Positions 18,091 through 61,717 of a DNA stretch of 64,000 nucleotides are shown here, one piece after another. The DNA is from an uncultured Alistipes sp. GTDB taxonomy: Bacteria > Bacteroidota > Bacteroidia > Bacteroidales > Rikenellaceae. The notes beneath the pieces are model-generated. The model had not been told where the DNA came from, searched no databases, and saw nothing but the letters and a program-made list of their open reading frames with translations. A program made the translations under genes and the position numbers. The stretch lies in the NCBI GenBank assembly GCA_944326855.1, contig CALVFO010000051.1, positions 60,863-124,862 of the forward strand. The letters run 5' to 3'. The first letter of the stretch is position 1. Each line of letters starts with the position of its first letter.

Positions 18091-19941
18091 TCACAAGGCG
18101 CGCGCCACGATTTCAGCCAAATCGTATACCGGCAGAGTCGCCTCCCGAGCGATTCCCTTTTTGCAGAGCGGACAGGCCGTGACGATACTGTCGGCTCCGG
18201 TAGCCGCCAACGCCATGGCCACCTGCTCGCCGATCCGACGTTGACCTTCGTCGTCGATGGCCGTGTTGGCCAGGCTCGATCCGCAACACAACGCATGTTC
18301 ACGGGTTTCGGCCGGTTCTTTCAGGACCCCCAACGCCGCGATCACTTCCCGCGGGGCTTCGTAAATACCGCTTCCGCGCCCCAGTTCACAAGGATCGTGA
18401 TAGGTAAACGTTTCCGAACCGGAACGGAGTTTCAGGCGCCCTTCGGCGAGCAACCGTTGCAGGTATTCCGAATGGTGCAGCACTTCGATGCCTTCCAGAG
18501 CGTAATCTTCCTTGAAAACTTTCAAACAGATGGGACAGGAAGTAACCAGCGTGGTAATGCCGTGTTGACGAAAGAGATTCTTGTTGAAATCCATCATTTT
18601 GCGAGCCGCATCCACCTCGCCCGAAAGTTTCAATGGACGCCCGCAACATACGCCTCCGTTTTTGTCGGCCCACCAAACCTCTTCGCCGGCAGCCGTGAAA
18701 ATCTGTTCCATCGCCCGCAGAATTTTTGGGGTCAACAGCGTCATGCACCCGGCAAAATAACCCACCTTGCCTTCTCCGGTCGAAAGATCCTTCCCCTGAA
18801 TATAGGCATAACGATTCGGGGAATCGGGATAGGCCCGTTTAACCCGACTGTTGAGACGCAGCGTGTTCTGTTCGATTCCGACCGGGCAGGCCTGTTGACA
18901 ACGGCCGCACATCAGGCAATTGTCGGCCACAGCGTCGGTCAGCCGACCGTAACGACGGTCACGCAGGAAATAAACCGACTGTACTCCCTGAATACCCGCT
19001 CCGCTCTGCAACTGACAGGGATCGATACAGATGCCGCAACGAGAACAGGCATCGACCTGAAAATGATCGAAAGAGGATTCTTTCTCTGCCGCCCTCAAAC
19101 CGGCATTGCGCAGAAAGATCAACGGAATTTCGGTGAAGATGTGCATGTAGCGCGAAAACGGCAACGCCACAAAGAAAACGCCCAAGGCAATGGAATAAAT
19201 CCACCAGGCCGTTAACTCGACATGTTGGGCCTCGATGATACGAGCCGGTAAAAAATCGGCCAACCACTGCCCGAGGCTGCCGGTCAGGAAGCTGCCGCAA
19301 CCGATACCGGGCGGAATCAACTGCGTATTCTCGCTCAGCGTCCAGACATAACCGCCGAATCGCCACACCTCGGCGCTGGTCAGACTCTCCGCCAACAGTC
19401 GGGCAGGGAAAATCAGCCACAGAGCCGTCAGGGCCACGCGGTCGCCGAGCATATGTTTGGTCGTTCGTTTCATCCCCATGATCCTCGAATACAGACGCTT
19501 GAAAAGGGCCAACACGACTCCGACGAGGATCAGCAACAGCAAAGCGTCCTTAATGAGTGAAAAATTGAAATTCCGCTCGAAGATGGGATGGACGTAATAC
19601 GAAAAGAAAATATCGACATACAAAGGCACGCTTTCGCCTTTGAAATAGACGAAGGTTTCGAGCCAACCTACCGAAATCAACAAAAACCACCCCAAGGCAA
19701 AACTGGTATGCATGTAACCCAGCAGCGGGTTGGTGCGCCAGATTTTACGGTGCAACAGGGATTCGTTGAAGATTTCGACCACGGATTTCCACGTGGCACG
19801 GGTGGGCAGCGAACGCCAGAAGAGCCGTTTCTGTTCCCGACTCAGCCCGATGAACCAGTAGATATACTTGCACAGCAGGGTGATCAGCAGAAAAAAGGCT
19901 CCGGCATAGAACGGCAGAACGAATAGTCTGAAATGTTCCAT
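18091..19941 (-). CDS. HdrE-HdrD-like fused membrane Fe-S oxidoreductase
   Basis: 616 residues. The N-terminal half (about 1-280) has five or six membrane helices of the NarI/HdrE/DsrM type; H78, H240 and H267 (the last in a 'PFSRYMH' context) are candidate haem-b ligands. Two [4Fe-4S] motifs follow: C299/302/305/309 and C342/345/348/352. Then come two complete CCG domains, C399-CCG(432-434)-C469-C472 and C518-CCG(552-554)-C590-C593, which in HdrB/HdrD hold noncubane [4Fe-4S] clusters. It probably exchanges electrons between menaquinone and the soluble Hdr subunits. It overlaps the preceding ferredoxin gene by one base. The substrate is unknown. Confidence 0.82.
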   Translation of the reverse strand: MEHFRLFVLPFYAGAFFLLITLLCKYIYWFIGLSREQKRLFWRSLPTRATWKSVVEIFNESLLHRKIWRTNPLLGYMHTSFALGWFLLISVGWLETFVYFKGESVPLYVDIFFSYYVHPIFERNFNFSLIKDALLLLILVGVVLALFKRLYSRIMGMKRTTKHMLGDRVALTALWLIFPARLLAESLTSAEVWRFGGYVWTLSENTQLIPPGIGCGSFLTGSLGQWLADFLPARIIEAQHVELTAWWIYSIALGVFFVALPFSRYMHIFTEIPLIFLRNAGLRAAEKESSFDHFQVDACSRCGICIDPCQLQSGAGIQGVQSVYFLRDRRYGRLTDAVADNCLMCGRCQQACPVGIEQNTLRLNSRVKRAYPDSPNRYAYIQGKDLSTGEGKVGYFAGCMTLLTPKILRAMEQIFTAAGEEVWWADKNGGVCCGRPLKLSGEVDAARKMMDFNKNLFRQHGITTLVTSCPICLKVFKEDYALEGIEVLHHSEYLQRLLAEGRLKLRSGSETFTYHDPCELGRGSGIYEAPREVIAALGVLKEPAETREHALCCGSSLANTAIDDEGQRRIGEQVAMALAATGADSIVTACPLCKKGIAREATLPVYDLAEIVARAL

Positions 19942-20276
19942 CAGCGCGAACGGTTAACTAAATGTTTTTTGAGGGTCAGCACGATCTGGCGGGTATTGAT
20001 TCCCCGCGGACAGGCCAGCCGACATTTTCCGCAAAGCATGCATTTTTCGAGCTCTTCGGCCATGCCCTGATACTCGCCCCGACGCACCAGGGTGTGTACC
20101 TTACGCAGGCTGAACGAGGTGAGGTTGGCGGCCGTACAGGTCGCCGTGCAGTTGCCGCAGGCGATACAGGTCTGCAACTCCGGATACTCGCGCAGGAGTT
20201 CCTGAGAGTAGCTCATGTCGTTGCGATCGATGTCGATCGACCGGGGACGACTGATCGAATATCCCCACGTGGTCAT
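19941..20276 (-). CDS. HdrC-like bis-[4Fe-4S] ferredoxin subunit (small)
   Basis: 111 residues with two ferredoxin motifs, CIACGNCTATC and CMLCGKCRLACP, spaced as in HdrC/QmoC electron-transfer subunits. There is no membrane segment. It overlaps the HdrA-like gene by 4 bp upstream and shares one base with the HdrED-like gene downstream, implying translational coupling and a fixed stoichiometry. It likely wires the flavoprotein to the membrane subunit. Confidence 0.82.
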   Translation of the reverse strand: MTTWGYSISRPRSIDIDRNDMSYSQELLREYPELQTCIACGNCTATCTAANLTSFSLRKVHTLVRRGEYQGMAEELEKCMLCGKCRLACPRGINTRQIVLTLKKHLVNRSR

Positions 20277-21295
20277 GACTTGGCGGCATTAAGGGTTTGA
20301 GCCACCTGGTAGGCGGCGGCGATGCCTTCGTTGATCGACTCCCCGATGTTTTTGGGTGCTGTCACCGTGCCGGCATAGAATAACCGGGGCGAGGAGGAGC
20401 GTACATTGCCGGAGAATTGATTCAGCGGACGAAGGAATCCGCTGGGATAGAGGTCAATGTTGTTGTTGCGGCCGAAAGCCACGTTACTCGACCCGGCCTG
20501 CATGCCCACCGCCAGGATCAACATGTCGACACTCATACGCAAGGGCCGTCCGATGAGCGTATCTTCGGCTTTGATATGAATGCGGTGATCGATGGTCGGA
20601 GAGGCTTCCGAGATGCGGCCTCGCACGAAATGGATGTTATACTGTTGCTGGGCCTGACGGTAGAGTTCTTCATACCCCGGTCCGAACATGCGCATATCCA
20701 TGTAGAAACTGAATATCTCGGCTCCGGGAATCTGTTGTTTGACCTCGATGGCTTGTTTGACGCCCGTGATGCAGCAAACCCGCGAGCAGTGCCGCTGATT
20801 GACTTTTTCGTCCCGGGAGCCTACACAGTGCAAAAAGGCCACGGTCTTCGGTTCCCGACCATCGGCCATCCGGACCCCGCCTTCCCGAAACATCCGTTCG
20901 ACGTCGACCGTCGTATAGACGTTGTCATAGAGACCGTAACCGTACTCTTCTTTGCGTTCGGCCGGAAAAATATCGAAGCCCGAAGCGACCACCACCGCTT
21001 CGGCATCCAAACGGCTGCCGTCGGAGAGAGTCACGCCCCGTCCCTGTTCCTCGATCTCGGACACCGTGGTGGAGGTCCTGACCTCCGAAGCGGTTTTTTC
21101 CACCCGTTTCAGCAGATCGCCGAGTACTTCCTGAGCGGGCGTCATGGTGGGAAACAGACGATCCCAGCGGCACAGCTTACCGCCCAACGAGGCTTCTTTC
21201 TCGATGATCACCGGTTTGAATCCCAGTTCGTCCAGGGTGATGGCCGTCTGCATGCCGGCGACTCCTCCTCCGATAATGATTACACGTCCTGTCAT
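20273..21295 (-). CDS. HdrA-like FAD oxidoreductase (short, QmoA-type)
   Basis: 340 residues. The FAD-binding GGGVAGMQ is at 9-16 and the second nucleotide-binding half is about 100-340. The conserved HdrA cysteines are present: CVGSRD (C157), then C170 and C174/C175. Unlike methanogen HdrA (about 650 residues) it lacks the N-terminal and C-terminal ferredoxin domains, resembling QmoA. In this family the flavin mediates electron transfer and sometimes bifurcation. A C-terminal 'YAGTVTAPKNIGESINEG' segment closes the FAD site. It sits between the HdrB-like and small HdrC-like genes. Confidence 0.85.
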   Translation of the reverse strand: MTGRVIIIGGGVAGMQTAITLDELGFKPVIIEKEASLGGKLCRWDRLFPTMTPAQEVLGDLLKRVEKTASEVRTSTTVSEIEEQGRGVTLSDGSRLDAEAVVVASGFDIFPAERKEEYGYGLYDNVYTTVDVERMFREGGVRMADGREPKTVAFLHCVGSRDEKVNQRHCSRVCCITGVKQAIEVKQQIPGAEIFSFYMDMRMFGPGYEELYRQAQQQYNIHFVRGRISEASPTIDHRIHIKAEDTLIGRPLRMSVDMLILAVGMQAGSSNVAFGRNNNIDLYPSGFLRPLNQFSGNVRSSSPRLFYAGTVTAPKNIGESINEGIAAAYQVAQTLNAAKS

Positions 21296-21316
21296 AGGTT
21301 TGCTTGGTTGCGAAAG

Positions 21317-22375
21317 TTATTTCGTATAGCAGCCGATGATCGAGTCCTCGGGCTTGCCGATGAATTTTCCGTTTTTACCCAGATACTTGGCACCCGGATC
21401 ATATTCGATTCCCATCTTGTCGAGCAAAGGTTCGACCGCAACCTGATGCAGCTGCAGGCCCAAATCCCAGGGATCGTAGCCCAACACCAATCCGGCCATT
21501 TCTTCGTAAGTCAGCACCGGAATCCCGTGCCCGTCCTGCCCGTAAAGCGTGCCCTCCATCTCCGAAATGGCATACTGCCAGCGATCGAGAAACATGGTGC
21601 ATCCCGGACAGTTCGCCACAATAAAATCGGGTTTATAGGGAGCCATCGATTCCAGTTTTTTCTTGGAATTGGCGACCGGACAGCCCCGATTGGCCTGAAC
21701 CAGGTAGTTGCGAAACCCGAATCCGCAGCAATGACGCCGTTCGGGATAATCGATACACTCACCGCCCCAGGCTTCGACCATTCCCGAAAGAACATAAGGA
21801 AACTCCGAGCCGCCCACACCCACTTTCGGGAAAATCTTGGCATAATGACATCCGATATGATCGACCACTTTCAAGGGTTCACCCGTCTGAGCATTGATCA
21901 GTTTGTGTTTGGCCTGAGCCGCGATCTGATGGCGGTGGTGAAACATAACGTCCGACGTATGGGCCAGATTCTTGGGTTTCTTGAATTCGCGACCCGTCGC
22001 TTTATACAGGTATTCATGAGCCTTTTCTTCCTGTTCCGGGAAGTCGTGCCACATCTCCAGGGCCTCGGAATAGATCCCGAACGAGGTAATGCACGAAGAG
22101 ACGAAATTTTCGTATCCGGCCTCGGTCATCAGGGAAAACTGACGGGCCACGACGGTCATGATCGTATCCAGCGGCACAATATCGGAGTGATAACCGATCC
22201 CGGTACAGGAGGTATGGCGGGCGTCATCCAACACATCGCGACCGAGGTCGTTGCCCAGAATATGGAGAAAAGCCGCTTCGGAACCCGGGAAAAAGTTCTG
22301 ACGGATGCAACTGCGGGCATAGTAATAGTGGTCGTCCGCAATATCTTTCTGGTATTCTTTCCAAGTGATTTTCAT
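21317..22375 (-). CDS. HdrB-like CCG-domain protein with degenerate N-terminal site
   Basis: 352 residues with two CCG-type halves. The C-terminal half is complete (C176, C216-C217-G, C256, C259) and should bind a noncubane [4Fe-4S] cluster. The N-terminal half keeps C23, C57 and C95, but the CCG reads C57-T-G and the final CxxC reads C95-I-T-S98, so two of five ligands are missing. In methanogen HdrB both sites carry clusters and act on the disulfide. It is 9 bp from the HdrC-like gene upstream and 21 bp from HdrA-like downstream. Confidence 0.82.
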   Translation of the reverse strand: MKITWKEYQKDIADDHYYYARSCIRQNFFPGSEAAFLHILGNDLGRDVLDDARHTSCTGIGYHSDIVPLDTIMTVVARQFSLMTEAGYENFVSSCITSFGIYSEALEMWHDFPEQEEKAHEYLYKATGREFKKPKNLAHTSDVMFHHRHQIAAQAKHKLINAQTGEPLKVVDHIGCHYAKIFPKVGVGGSEFPYVLSGMVEAWGGECIDYPERRHCCGFGFRNYLVQANRGCPVANSKKKLESMAPYKPDFIVANCPGCTMFLDRWQYAISEMEGTLYGQDGHGIPVLTYEEMAGLVLGYDPWDLGLQLHQVAVEPLLDKMGIEYDPGAKYLGKNGKFIGKPEDSIIGCYTK

Positions 22376-22384
22376 AACTTCCGA

Positions 22385-23080
22385 TTATTGATGGGTTCCG
22401 TTGTCGGCCGTATAGATATGATGGAAATATTCATCGTCAGCCCCTTCGAAACCCATCTCGATGGCTTTCTGCTCGGAACATTTTTCCAGGTTGTCGAAGA
22501 ATTCGTCGCATCCGGTCACTTTCAGAATGCTGTGCAGTTCGGCCATACTCTGATCGTCGATTTTTCGTACGGCTCCCGGTCCTTCCTGACGATAGTTGTC
22601 TCCGAAGCGCTCGAAGACATCCCGATCATGTTCGTATATCCATTTCCAGACGGGCCCCTGTTCCGGATGCATTTCCGGATCGATCAGTTCAGGCATCAGA
22701 CAATACCCCGTATTGACGATATTGTGTCCGATGGTGCGTTTCAGGGCCAGTTGCTGGCGTCCCTTTTCGCTGTAAACGAAAAATCCCAGCCGCTGAGAGA
22801 GGCTTCGCAAGGATTGGATGATATAAGCCGGAGTATTGCCTCTCGGACAGCGAGGACGGCAGGACATGCACTCGCCGCAATACCAAATGGTATCGCTTTT
22901 GAGCAGTTCCTCGATGGCCCGATCATCCTGGGTTTGGACGGTATCGACGATCTGACGGGGATCGTAATTGTAAAATTCGGCCGACGGACACACTCCGGTA
23001 CAGATGCCGCAGTTCATACAGGCGGTCAGGCCCTCTTTCATGCGCACATCCTCCATCAGCATATTGAAATATTTCCCCAT
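22385..23080 (-). CDS. HdrC-like 4Fe-4S dicluster protein (large)
   Basis: 231 residues from ATG 23080. This start is chosen over an ATG at 23113 because an AAGGAG ribosome-binding site lies 6-7 nt upstream and the -7 box at 23116 leaves no leader for the longer form. The ferredoxin motifs CMNCGICTGVCP and CGECMSCRPRCP lie in the first 80 residues. The C-terminal 140 residues are a family-specific helical region rich in acidic residues with two isolated cysteines. First gene of the five-gene operon. A second HdrC-type protein occurs later in the same operon, so the two are not redundant copies of one gene. Confidence 0.8.
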   Translation of the reverse strand: MGKYFNMLMEDVRMKEGLTACMNCGICTGVCPSAEFYNYDPRQIVDTVQTQDDRAIEELLKSDTIWYCGECMSCRPRCPRGNTPAYIIQSLRSLSQRLGFFVYSEKGRQQLALKRTIGHNIVNTGYCLMPELIDPEMHPEQGPVWKWIYEHDRDVFERFGDNYRQEGPGAVRKIDDQSMAELHSILKVTGCDEFFDNLEKCSEQKAIEMGFEGADDEYFHHIYTADNGTHQ

Positions 23081-23115
23081 GGCGGTCTCCTTAATGGATA
23101 CAGTTTTCAACATAA

Positions 23116-56987: not shown

Positions 56988-57674
56988 ATGGGCAATTTGT
57001 TCTCTTCCTCAATCGGCAGAAAGTTGATTATGAGTATCTCGGGTCTCTTTCTGATCCTGTTCCTGCTGTTCCACATGTCGATGAACCTTGTGGCCGTCTT
57101 CTCTACCGAAGCCTATAACATGATCTGCGAATTTCTCGGAGCTCACTGGTATGCTTTGGTCGGAACCCTGGTACTGGCAGCCGGATTCCTGTTCCACATC
57201 ATCTACGCCTTTATCCTGACCATCAAAAACCGTCAGGCCCGCGGCAATCAGCGTTATGCCGTTTCCAAACACGAACAAGGCGTCAGCTGGGCCTCGAAAA
57301 ACATGTTCGTCCTGGGGCTCATCGTCGTATTGGGATTGCTTCTGCACTTCTACAACTTCTGGTACAACATGCAATTCGCCGAACTGATCGGTGAACAGGT
57401 CGGTCCTTACGGTCCGGCCGACGGCGCAGCCTACATCACCAGCCTGTTCAGCAATCCGGTCTTCGTGATCCTCTACCTGGTATGGTTCGCCGCTCTGTGG
57501 TTCCACCTCACCCACGGTTTCTGGAGTGCCTTCCAGACCCTGGGCTGGGACAACCAGATCTGGATCAAACGCTGGAAATGCATCGCCAACATTTTTGCCA
57601 CGGTGGTCATGCTGTGCTTCGCCCTGGTAGTCGTGGTATTCTTCCTGCGCAGCCTCTGCGGGGGAGCATGCTAA
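56988..57674 (+). CDS. sdhC: Succinate dehydrogenase/fumarate reductase cytochrome b subunit
   Basis: 228 residues, five membrane helices in one polypeptide (Type B, Bacteroides/Wolinella-like). H29, H70, H120, H173 and H176 are candidate ligands for the two b haems. It exchanges electrons between menaquinone and the flavoprotein. It starts the sdhCAB operon, 37 bp before sdhA. Confidence 0.93.
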
Positions 57675-57711
57675 TCCCTTCCTGAATCGTAAAATAAGAC
57701 AATACAAGATT

Positions 57712-59655
57712 ATGGCAAAGTTAGATTCGAAAATTCCGGCCGGCCCGTTGGCCGAGAAATGGAGCAAACACAAAGCTGACATCAAAGTGGTCAGCCCGGC
57801 TAACAAGCGCAAACTGGATATTATCGTCGTAGGTACCGGTCTGGGGGGTGCATCCGCAGCCGCTTCGCTGGGTGAACTGGGCTACAACGTCAAGATATTC
57901 TGCATCAGCGACTCGCCCCGCCGCGCACACTCGATCGCCGCACAAGGGGGGATCAACGCCGCTAAAAATTACCAGAACGACAACGACTCGGTATTCCGTC
58001 TGTTCTACGACACCATCAAAGGGGGTGACTACCGCGCCCGCGAAGCCAACGTATACCGTCTGGCCGAAGTGTCGAACAACATCATCGACCAGTGCGTCGC
58101 TCAGGGGGTTCCCTTCGCCCGTGATTACGGCGGGTTGCTCGACAACCGCTCTTTCGGGGGTGCTCAGGTATCGCGTACCTTTTATGCCCGCGGCCAGACC
58201 GGTCAGCAGTTGTTGTTGGGTGCCTATGCCGCCCTCAACCGTCAGATTGCCAAAGGTAGCGTGAAAAGCTATCCGCGTCACGAAATGCTCGACCTGGTAT
58301 TGGTAGACGGCAAAGCCCGCGGGATCATCACCCGCAACCTGATCACCGGGGAAATCGAACGTTTCGGGGCTCATGCCGTGGTAATCGCCACCGGCGGTTA
58401 CGGGAACGTATTCTTCCTGTCGACCAACGCCATGAACTCCAACGGTTCGGCCGCCTGGCAGTGCTACAAGAAAGGCGCCTGCTTCGCCAACCCCTGCTTC
58501 ACGCAGATCCACCCGACCTGTATTCCCGTACACGGGACCCAGCAGTCGAAACTGACCCTGATGTCCGAATCGTTGCGTAACGACGGTCGTATCTGGGTAC
58601 CCAAGAAAAAAGAAGACGTGGAACTGATCCGCGCCAAGAAGAAAAAAGCATCCGACATCCCGGAAGAAGACCGCGACTACTACCTCGAACGCCGCTACCC
58701 GGCCTTCGGGAACCTGGTACCGCGTGACGTGGCTTCGCGTGCCGCCAAGGAACGCTGCGACGCCGGTTACGGTGTGAACGAAACCGGTCTGGCCGTATTC
58801 CTCGACTTCAAGACCGCCATCGACCGTCTGGGTGAAGACGTGATTCGCGCCCGCTACGGCAACCTCTTCCAGATGTACGAAAAGATCACCGACGTGAACC
58901 CCTATCACGAACCGATGATGATCTATCCGGCCGTACACTATACCATGGGTGGTATCTGGGTGGACTACAACCTGATGACCACCATCCCGGGTCTGTACGC
59001 CATCGGGGAAGCCAACTTCTCCGACCACGGAGCCAACCGCCTGGGGGCTTCGGCGCTGATGCAGGGTCTGGCCGACGGTTACTTCGTACTGCCTTATACC
59101 ATCGGGGACTACCTCTCGCATGAAATCCAGTCGCCGAAAGTCAATACCGACACGCCCGAATTCGCCGAAGCTGAAAAAGCGGTCAAAGAAAAGATCGCCA
59201 AACTCTTCTCGATCCAAGGAGCAGAATCGGTGGACGACATCCACAAGAAGCTGGGTCACATCATGTGGGAAAACGTCGGCATGGGCCGAACCAAAGAGAG
59301 TCTCGAAAAGGCCATCGTGGAAATTCAGGCTCTGCGCAAGGATTTCTGGAAAAATGTCCGCGTGACGGGGACCAACGAAGAGTTCAACCAGGAACTGGAA
59401 AAAGCAATTCGTTTGGCCGACTTCCTGGAACTGGGCGAACTGATGGCCCGCGACGCCTTGCATCGTCAGGAATCCTGCGGCGGTCACTTCCGCGTGGAAT
59501 ACCAGACTCCCGAAGGCGAAGCCTTGCGTGACGACAAACACTTCGCATATGTGGCCGTATGGGAATATCAGGGTGCCGATCAGGAGCCCAAGCTCGAAAA
59601 AGAACCGCTGGTATTCGAAGCCGTACACCTGGCACAACGCAACTACAAAGACTAA
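57712..59655 (+). CDS. sdhA: Succinate dehydrogenase/fumarate reductase flavoprotein subunit
   Basis: 647 residues. FAD-binding [10 protein letters not shown] near 43-52, the covalent flavin region '[15 protein letters not shown]', and the substrate site 'IHPTCIP' then '[23 protein letters not shown]' with '[13 protein letters not shown]' for FAD. Bacteroides-type long form. It interconverts succinate and fumarate. In an anaerobe the direction is usually fumarate reduction, but the sequence does not fix this. Confidence 0.96.
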
Positions 59656-59685
59656 CGCCGGATTAGGACTTTAAAATTAACGAAC

Positions 59686-60429
59686 ATGAATTTGACATTA
59701 AAGATATGGCGTCAGAAGAACGCCAAGGCCCCGGGAAAATTCGTAACCTACAAGGTGGAAAACATCTCCCCGGATACTTCTTTCCTCGAAATGTTGGACA
59801 TTCTGAACAACGACCTGATCCACAAAGGCGAAGATCCCGTCGTGTTCGATCATGACTGCCGCGAAGGTATCTGCGGGATGTGCTCGCTGCATATCAACGG
59901 TTTCGCTCATGGGCCCGACACGGAAATCACCACCTGCCAGCTGCACATGCGTAAATTCAAAGACGGCGACACGATCACCATCGAACCGTGGCGTTCACAC
60001 GCCTTCCCGGTAATCAAGGACCTGGCCGTCGACCGTAGCGCATTCGACAAGATTCTGCAAGCCGGCGGATTCATTTCGGTCAACACCGGCGGGGTTCCCG
60101 ATGCCAACTCCATTCCCATTCCCAAGGCTGACGCCGACGAAAGTATGGATGCGGCTGCCTGCATTGGTTGCGGGGCTTGTGTGGCCACTTGCAAGAACGG
60201 TTCGGCCATGTTGTTCGTAGCTGCCCGCGTATCGTCGCTGGCCAAGCTGCCGCAGGGTCGTGTAGAAGGCGCCCGTCGTGCCAAAGCGATGGTGGCCAAG
60301 ATGGACGAACTGGGCTTCGGCGCCTGCACCAACACCGGTGCCTGCGAAGCTCAATGCCCAAAAGGCATTTCGATCGCCCACATCGCCCGCCTGAACCGCG
60401 AATTCCTTTCAGCCAAACTGAAAGACTAA
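59686..60429 (+). CDS. sdhB: Succinate dehydrogenase/fumarate reductase iron-sulfur subunit
   Basis: 247 residues. The [2Fe-2S] ligands are C58, C63, C66 and C84. A [4Fe-4S] motif [11 protein letters not shown] follows at about 152-162, then [14 protein letters not shown], where the second cysteine position is T, the usual [3Fe-4S] pattern. It passes electrons between SdhA and the haem subunit. It is followed by a large bidirectional terminator. Confidence 0.95.
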
Positions 60430-60691: not shown

Positions 60692-61717
60692 CTACTGGAT
60701 TCCGCGCAACTTCTTTTCCCAGGCCCAGGCCGAAGCCAGGGTATCCTCGAGTTTACGCTGGGCCTTCCAACCCAACTCCTGATTGGCGAACGTGGTATCA
60801 GCCCAAATCTTTTCGATGTCCCCGGCACGACGCCCGACAATGCGATGGTTGACCTTGACGCCGGTCGCCCGCTCAAAAGCGGCAATCAGTTCCAGCACCG
60901 ACACGCCCCGACCGGTTCCTACGTTGAAGAACTCGTAATGGCTCTTGCTCTTGCCCTGCACCATGCGGTCTACGGCCACGACATGAGCCCGGGCCAGGTC
61001 GGTAATGTCGATATAGTCCCGGATAGCCGACCCGTCGGGCGTATTGTAATCATCCCCGAAAACGCTCAGACATTCGCGCAAACCGGCAGCCGTCTGGGTC
61101 ATATAGGGCACCAGATTGCCCGGAACTCCTTTGGGCAGCTCGCCGATCAAGGCCGAAGGATGAGCCCCGATGGGGTTAAAATAACGCAAAGCAATCCCAT
61201 ACAAAGCCGGATAAGCTGCTACGGTATCCCGAATAATGTCTTCGCTGATCTGTTTCGTATTCCCATAGGGTGAGGTGGCCGGCTGGCGAGGCGTCTGTTC
61301 GGTCACCGGCAACACTTCGGGCTGACCATACACCGTACACGAAGAAGAGAAGACCAGGTTGCGCACTCCTTTATCCCGCATCAGTTCCAAGACGTTAATC
61401 AACGACCCGAGGTTATTGCGGTAATACAACAACGGTTTTTCGACCGACTCGCCCACCGCTTTCGAGGCGGCAAAATGGATGATCGAATTGAATTTATACC
61501 GATCGAACACCCGACCCAAGGCCTCTTTGTCGCCGCAATCGACCTGTTCGAAGGGGATATCCACTCCGGTAATGGTACGCACCCCTTCGACGGCTTTGAA
61601 TTCCGAATTGGAGAGGTTATCCACGATCACCACATCATAACCCGCAGCGATCAATTCTACGGTCGTATGCGAGCCGATATAGCCCGCACCTCCGGTTACC
61701 AAAACACATTCTTTCAT
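60692..61717 (-). CDS. galE: UDP-glucose 4-epimerase
   Basis: 341 residues of the SDR fold. GGAGYIGSH at 9-17 is the NAD site, 'SSSCTVYG' and YGNTK (catalytic Tyr and Lys) follow, then 'LRYFNPIGAHPS' near the substrate pocket. It interconverts UDP-Glc/UDP-Gal and possibly the N-acetyl forms. It could link the GalNAc 1-phosphate expected from the NahK-like kinase to UDP-GlcNAc, although a uridylyltransferase would be needed and is not visible here. Confidence 0.95.
   Translation of the reverse strand: MKECVLVTGGAGYIGSHTTVELIAAGYDVVIVDNLSNSEFKAVEGVRTITGVDIPFEQVDCGDKEALGRVFDRYKFNSIIHFAASKAVGESVEKPLLYYRNNLGSLINVLELMRDKGVRNLVFSSSCTVYGQPEVLPVTEQTPRQPATSPYGNTKQISEDIIRDTVAAYPALYGIALRYFNPIGAHPSALIGELPKGVPGNLVPYMTQTAAGLRECLSVFGDDYNTPDGSAIRDYIDITDLARAHVVAVDRMVQGKSKSHYEFFNVGTGRGVSVLELIAAFERATGVKVNHRIVGRRAGDIEKIWADTTFANQELGWKAQRKLEDTLASAWAWEKKLRGIQ

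Follow-up and report, generated by a model that had tools for sequence, protein, structure and literature searches.

Bacteroidales are abundant anaerobes of gut and sediment whose known menaquinone-linked respiration is short and leads chiefly to fumarate, and an uncultured Alistipes sp. raises the question of what a set of Hdr-like genes does in such an organism. In the window (the whole stretch of 64,000 nucleotides analysed here, positions 60,863 to 124,862 of contig CALVFO010000051.1), five intact reading frames lie on the minus strand in the order C1-B1-A-C2-ED, from 23113 to 18091, and form one tightly packed operon. The first-pass annotation had described two HdrC-type ferredoxins, an HdrB, a short HdrA and a fused membrane/Fe-S/double-CCG subunit, and frames and domains agree with it: by Pfam and NCBIfam, C1 and C2 each have 2x[4Fe-4S], B1 has one CCG match, A has a single flavin adenine dinucleotide (FAD) fold, and ED combines 2x[4Fe-4S] with two CCG domains. 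The overlaps of 1-4 bp that it had noted between the last three genes are also there, at 4 bp for A/C2 and 1 bp for C2/ED, with gaps of 9 and 21 bp between the remaining genes; the frame of C1 starts at 23113, and the earlier upper limit of 23080 is an ATG inside C1. Our tentative reading, which we hold with some doubt, is that the operon encodes a membrane-attached thiol/persulfide:menaquinone oxidoreductase. The five genes are as follows (aa, amino acids):

22385..23113, minus strand: C1, HdrC1-type ferredoxin, 242 aa
21317..22375, minus strand: B1, HdrB/sHdrB1-type CCG protein, 352 aa
20273..21295, minus strand: A, short HdrA (sHdrA-like) FAD protein, 340 aa
19941..20276, minus strand: C2, second HdrC-type ferredoxin, 111 aa, two [4Fe-4S] motifs
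18091..19941, minus strand: ED, HdrE-HdrD fusion, 616 aa

The grouping of these five genes is far from chance. A contig scan with A as the query and one genome per species, which kept the best 80 of 133 loci and is thus biased to A-bearing operons, returned all five genes on one strand in 76 of the 80 loci, the remaining four being cut by contig ends. The loci include Alistipes, Odoribacter, Butyricimonas and Lentimicrobiaceae, and in a few of them, such as L102, L108 and L123, frames are extended or split. The best named relative is an Alistipes metagenome-assembled genome (L054), with identities of 93% for C1, 97% for B1, 89% for A, 95% for C2 and 91% for ED. In a sample of the family, A was matched at E <= 1e-40 in 74 of 101 genomes, own genome counted. 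A fairer count than that of the A-baited scan comes from a search with B1 in the order of the window (295 genomes, taken as Bacteroidales from the named loci), where B1 was found in 90 genomes, 11 of them with two copies. Outside the window this search yielded 100 B1 loci, comprising 80 with the A-ED operon, 12 with C1-B1 (one of these showing just B1, at a contig end), 5 truncated at contig ends and 3 with B1-A. If an operon is called full when B1 has A and ED nearby on the same strand, whether or not C1 and C2 are present, the window's genome and the 80 full loci, one per genome, amount to 81 of the 295 sampled genomes of the order, about a quarter. Three loci in three genomes of one family (L236, L255 and L256) keep B1-A, and C1, C2 and ED were not found nearby. 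In a phylum-wide sample of 395 genomes A was matched at 1e-40 in 24, of which only the window's genome, G005 and G087 have a short full-length A; the other 21 matches lie in frames of at least 595 aa.

The first-pass annotation had staked its case on the five genes staying together, as they do, and on there being no homologous complex with an assigned substrate. None appears among the open-access literature matches listed, nor does any description of the operon in Bacteroidales, subscription papers lying outside the scope of that search; the available portions of PMC12345210, PMC10266427, PMC6085437 and PMC13384644 do not describe it. The parts and principles are known, and the combination appears to be new.

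The family placement of the flavoprotein gives the first indication of what the operon may do. A is a single FAD fold without the extra ferredoxin domains of methanogen HdrA, and its residues C157, C170, C174 and C175, which we take to be cluster ligands by homology, do not vary in any of 110 aligned rows. The HdrA core was placed in a tree of 29 rows, in which the Bacteroidales A proteins and one cyanobacterial plasmid protein form one group (100/98) and three sHdrA rows form the neighbouring group (99/93), with HdrA and Qmo separate from both (99/96); the tree is midpoint-rooted, its three sHdrA rows fall short of sHdrA diversity, and one HdrA row without a match was dropped. A is accordingly placed by this tree as the sister of sHdrA, the flavoprotein of the sulfur-oxidising Hdr-like (sHdr) system. 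The label "QmoA-like" given to A by the first-pass annotation has to be abandoned, because A falls outside the QmoA and QmoB rows. Among the Qmo loci used for comparison, L170 and L173 are confirmed by NCBIfam qmoC (497 and 510 bits against a cut-off of 300), and the Qmo identity of L171 and L172 was taken from gene arrangement and tree.

B1 points the same way through its two cysteine sites, which are listed here together with the motifs of the other subunits:

C1, minus strand: [4Fe-4S] motifs C32/35/38/42 and C79/82/85/89, two CxxCxxCxxxC
22082..22309, minus strand: N-terminal site of B1, C23...S56-C57...C95-x-T-S98, by alignment to 5odc_B
21599..21850, minus strand: C-terminal site of B1, C176, C216-C217, C256 and C259, an intact noncubane-type ligand set
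20756..20827, minus strand: conserved residues C157, C170, C174, C175 and K180 of A
19105..19941, minus strand: membrane part of ED, residues 1-279, by predicted structure, with H64, H78 and H267
18874..19056, minus strand: 2x[4Fe-4S] ferredoxin domain of ED, residues 296-356, by domain match and cysteine counts
18094..18771, minus strand: HdrD part of ED, residues 391-616, two complete CCG motifs, ten cysteines

At the N-terminal site C23, C57 and C95 are kept, that is, three of the five HdrB cysteines, and two positions are changed to S/T. In all 81 operon-borne rows, and in all 14 rows of B1 lying apart from the operon in Bacteroidales, position 56 has S or T and position 98 has S, with T in one row; both positions are S in four of four other B1-type rows and C in two of two HdrB-like rows. 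The eight remaining ligand cysteines are kept in 95/95 rows. Judged by these alignments B1 carries the sHdrB1 pattern, in which two N-site cysteines are lost. A 54-row tree, built with the window and 33 of the 80 full loci, places B1 with sHdrB1 and separates both from the two HdrB-like rows (100/100), which are the whole outgroup and both sit on long branches. Taken together, the kinship of A with sHdrA and the pattern of B1 make the sulfur-oxidising Hdr-like system the nearest relative with an assigned pathway.

The ferredoxins and the membrane subunit supply the remaining parts. Of the 76 rows aligned for C1, the window among them, at least 97% keep the eight ligand cysteines, and the eight of C2 are likewise kept in at least 97% of its aligned rows, matches covering less than 80% of the query having been left out of both alignments. 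In ED, H64, H78 and H267 are invariant (72/72 rows) and are candidate ligands of heme b, and the 18 ligand cysteines are kept in 70-72 of 72 rows, the remainder being gaps. A structure model of ED alone, with a mean predicted local distance difference test (pLDDT) score of 89.7, has a helical membrane part, aligns with EtfD along the full length and also shares the HdrB fold, so that on the model ED is an HdrE-HdrD fusion with the EtfD fold. All ten CCG cysteines are present, as in catalytic HdrB/HdrD and unlike EtfD and the sHdr-linked EMO, and the two CCG motifs of ED look catalytically complete.

How far the kinship with sHdr extends can be seen from gene content. PMC11582611 gives type I as shdrC1B1AHC2B2 and type II as shdrC1B1AHB3 with etfAB in one syntenic cluster. 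The Alistipes operon shares with both types the C1-B1-A order, the short HdrA without ferredoxin domains, the N-site pattern of sHdrB1 and the sister relationship of A. It differs in having no hyp (sHdrH) gene, A and C2 overlapping with nothing between them; in having C2-ED instead of C2B2 or B3, with etfAB on another contig of the genome; in a B1 that keeps C256, which is Asp in the sHdrB1 of L135 and L136; and in carrying, within the operon, a membrane HdrDE fusion whose CCG motifs are intact. C256 is in fact kept in all 95 Bacteroidales rows and in the cyanobacterial row, and is also D in an Acidithiobacillus plasmid protein. Moreover, the sHdr core is described as inevitably associated with the lipoate carrier LbpA (PMC6067878), and no LbpA was found in the Alistipes genome, an assembly of 2.48 Mb in 55 contigs rated 93% complete, whose sole GcvH-family gene adjoins a gene of the lactate/malate-dehydrogenase family. 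Full membership of sHdr is ruled out by this gene content and by the lack of a detectable LbpA. Within the family, exactly one GcvH-family match was found in 52 of 61 genomes, none in 5 and two in 4, and in three of these four the second match is weak (about 20-22 bits, stretches in long frames).

Clusters that look like type II sHdr do occur in the same phylum, in two genomes from outside the class of the window, G005 and G087 (L135 and L136). They hold C1, B1, A, a fused B3, EtfBA, a membrane EMO-type protein, a GcvH-like LbpA and DsrE, and the G005 cluster adds a lipoate ligase and, between A and B3, an unassigned gene; the L136 cluster is followed by a gene for a molybdopterin oxidoreductase. 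A plasmid of Acidithiobacillus ferrooxidans (L169:787-4490) has an annotated GcvH near a 446-aa sHdrB1-type protein and hemerythrin-domain proteins, with no further Hdr gene among the annotations of the 13 kb fetched. A plasmid of Picosynechococcus PCC 7003 (L168:11218-16958) carries a soluble form of the core, C1-B1-A-C2-B2, followed by a flavoprotein. Its B1 and A are 43.4% and 43.8% identical to those of the operon, and its A lies within the Bacteroidales A rows (unstarred support), but a soluble B2 and the flavoprotein, weakly like type III sulfide:quinone reductase (SQR; 83 bits, cut-off 525), stand in place of ED.

The other known systems resemble the operon in parts. The mycobacterial ETF:menaquinone oxidoreductase EtfD/EMO (ETF, electron-transferring flavoprotein) likewise has membrane, ferredoxin and HdrD parts in one chain, with the same fold over the whole length; however, substitutions make its CCG sites non-catalytic (T539 and H583 in EtfD, loss of the N-site cysteines in the EMO of L135 and L136), whereas ED keeps C433 and has no His at 471, and the operon has no etfAB. 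Methanogen HdrDE offers the double CCG of HdrD type with ten cysteines, and HdrABC the homologues of HdrC and HdrB. At the level of motif and fold, ED has the two complete CCG motifs and the putative membrane heme-b part that would define HdrDE, but in it HdrD and HdrE are fused and a quinone would replace methanophenazine. The HdrA of HdrABC has about 650 aa and extra ferredoxin domains; A has 340 aa against 643-671 aa in solved HdrA chains, and the N-site of B1 is degenerate. Finally, QmoABC also pairs an HdrA-like flavoprotein with membrane-linked Fe-S parts, and differs from the operon in its long, HdrA-like QmoB, which the operon lacks, and in the position of A outside the Qmo rows.

From these placements we infer a single complex. 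The one intact CCG site of B1 would react with a thiol, disulfide or persulfide substrate, C1 would connect B1 to the FAD of A, C2 would connect A to ED, and the [4Fe-4S] chain and the putative heme b of ED would reach menaquinone, giving an electron path B1-C1-A(FAD)-C2-ED-heme b-menaquinone, or the opposite way. The complex would stand as a sister to the sHdr core (C1-B1-A), coupled to a quinone module of HdrDE type that would replace the B2/B3, EtfAB and EMO of sHdr, and it would run without LbpA. A sulfur substrate is proposed because of the kinship with sHdr. In Hyphomicrobium the sHdr-LbpA pathway oxidises the sulfur of thiosulfate and forms sulfite (PMC10332631 and PMC6067878). For the Alistipes complex, oxidation of sulfane or thiol sulfur would be the likelier direction, fumarate reductase re-oxidising the menaquinol. 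The sdhCAB genes with which the first-pass annotation had paired the operon are confirmed in the window (56988-60429); they imply menaquinone use and a shared quinone but no direct link to the Hdr operon. Elsewhere in the genome an 821-aa fusion of pyridine nucleotide-disulfide reductase, rhodanese, TusA and DsrE (L280:4396-6858), adjoining a thioredoxin-family gene, suggests that the cell probably handles sulfane sulfur.

Part of the operon also occurs by itself. C1-B1 without A and ED was counted in 14 cases, made up of the 12 loci mentioned above and two second copies at contig ends (L178, L179, L182, L184, L185, L188, L190, L192, L197, L199, L200, L234, L238 and L252; L200 has B1 only), and 13 of the 14 B1 copies fall on one branch (94/94, unstarred). 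Their neighbours are NifX-like (9), DUF134 (8), two MinD-ferredoxin types (6 and 7), Mrp (6) and Cys/Met pyridoxal phosphate (PLP) proteins (3), families that near the 80 full operons number 0, 0, 2 and 1, 0 and 1, with OsmC found once; at least 10 of the 14 have NifX-like, MinD-ferredoxin, Mrp, DUF134 or CGGC genes nearby. In L190 (4083-9339), TusA, a YeeE/YedE sulfur transporter and two rhodanese-domain proteins are encoded no farther than about 4 kb from B1; a Crp-type gene separates B1 from the sulfur genes, and a TonB-receptor gene separates B1 from C1. C1-B1 thus behaves as a separable module, in one case near sulfur carriers.

Several observations weigh against a thiol/persulfide:menaquinone oxidoreductase of the kind proposed. 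Single-sequence queries for TusA, YeeE, rhodanese, DsrE, LbpA and SQR-like proteins found none in the fetched flanks of the 80 full operons, and clustering the neighbours of the 80 loci gave no conserved partner gene beside the operon. (Matches to coenzyme A disulfide reductase, in 38/80 full loci, were disregarded, as the query probably detects the operon's own A.) A sulfur context accompanies one of the 14 C1-B1 loci, at least nine others being of the NifX/MinD/DUF134 type and two having none of the queried genes. The two trees, moreover, disagree on the cyanobacterial row: it lies within the Bacteroidales in the A tree, and in the B1 tree it lies outside sHdrB1 and Bacteroidales B1 combined (91/69, long branches). 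The trees thus give conflicting histories of the C1-B1-A core. Lastly, A keeps both residues proposed as marks of electron-bifurcating HdrA, which a plain relay would not need. The commonest neighbour cluster is a small lipoprotein-like gene after ED on the same strand, found in 15 of the 80 loci (for example L083:11487-12041) and in no named Alistipes; a rhodanese identity for it was dropped on the look of the full sequence, no family scan having been run on it.

The bifurcation residues lead to one of the alternatives. By alignment, K180 of A corresponds to K409 of methanogen HdrA and E133 (20897-20899, upstream of K180) to E356, and both are invariant in 110/110 rows. The structure 6TJR keeps the glutamate and has N at the lysine position; we treat it as a probable sHdrA, for which a reference to Ernst et al. 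2021 speaks, the title of its PDB entry giving a different family. The pair K409/E356, near the FAD, is proposed in PMC12054007 to distinguish bifurcating from non-bifurcating HdrA, and A carries both equivalents. The FAD of A might on this evidence act as a hub, bifurcating or confurcating between C1-B1 and C2-ED-menaquinone with a donor encoded elsewhere, such as NADH, ferredoxin or ETF; two separate HdrC-type wires flanking A in the operon, and etfAB elsewhere in the genome, would suit it. We nevertheless consider such a hub unlikely, since A is without the ferredoxin domains through which HdrABC runs its low-potential branch, the type II sHdrA of L135 and L136 also keeps the lysine, which makes this residue weak evidence alone, and the operon has no conserved partner gene, the flanks fetched for the 80 full operons showing no match to EtfA. 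The direction of flow could also be reversed. HdrDE-type enzymes work from a membrane carrier towards a disulfide, and ED, with its full catalytic-type set of HdrD cysteines and its HdrB fold, could do the same as a menaquinol-driven disulfide or persulfide reductase yielding thiols or sulfide, B1-C1-A-C2 being a second site or a regulator. This is in our estimate rather unlikely, given that menaquinol is a weak donor for most low-molecular-weight disulfides and that C1-B1-A has its nearest pathway-assigned relatives among oxidative systems. PMC10734219 puts menaquinol at about -74 mV.

The fold that ED shares with EtfD along its full length, together with the EtfAB encoded in the host genome, would also allow an ETF:menaquinone oxidoreductase in which EtfAB or some other flavoprotein feeds ED and the Hdr-like genes play an accessory part. 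That is quite improbable: etfAB lie on a different contig from the operon, ED retains the catalytic-type cysteines lost by EtfD and EMO, which also disfavours plain EtfD/EMO identity for this subunit, and B1 and A share the operon with ED in 80 of 100 B1 loci. A Qmo-like complex that passes menaquinol electrons to a cytoplasmic reductase such as AprAB seems hardly credible. QmoC is indeed another HdrC-type/membrane fusion (the qmoC matches in L170 and L173 match HdrC models too), but A lies outside QmoA/QmoB, a QmoB-like long HdrA is missing, and the genome has no match to PF01077 (Dsr/Sir). Nor does it have any to PF02906 or PF00374 (hydrogenases), in line with the first-pass annotation, which had seen no sulfate-reduction, hydrogenase or methanogenesis genes nearby; AprAB and methanogenesis genes were not searched by model.

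If the thiol/persulfide:menaquinone oxidoreductase is nonetheless what the operon encodes, a quinone-linked Hdr complex would add to the short respiration of Bacteroidales an undescribed entry or exit point, probably for sulfur compounds. The broader proposal, that a lipoate-free third branch of Hdr-type sulfur oxidation, connected directly to menaquinone, lets fermentative gut Bacteroidales (Alistipes, Odoribacter and Butyricimonas) respire sulfane sulfur or thiols as electron donors with fumarate as acceptor, is on the unlikely side. With an sHdr-like core separated from the lipoate carrier, the role of C1-B1-A alone becomes directly testable, and a complex of this kind would bear on the balance of sulfide and thiols in the gut.

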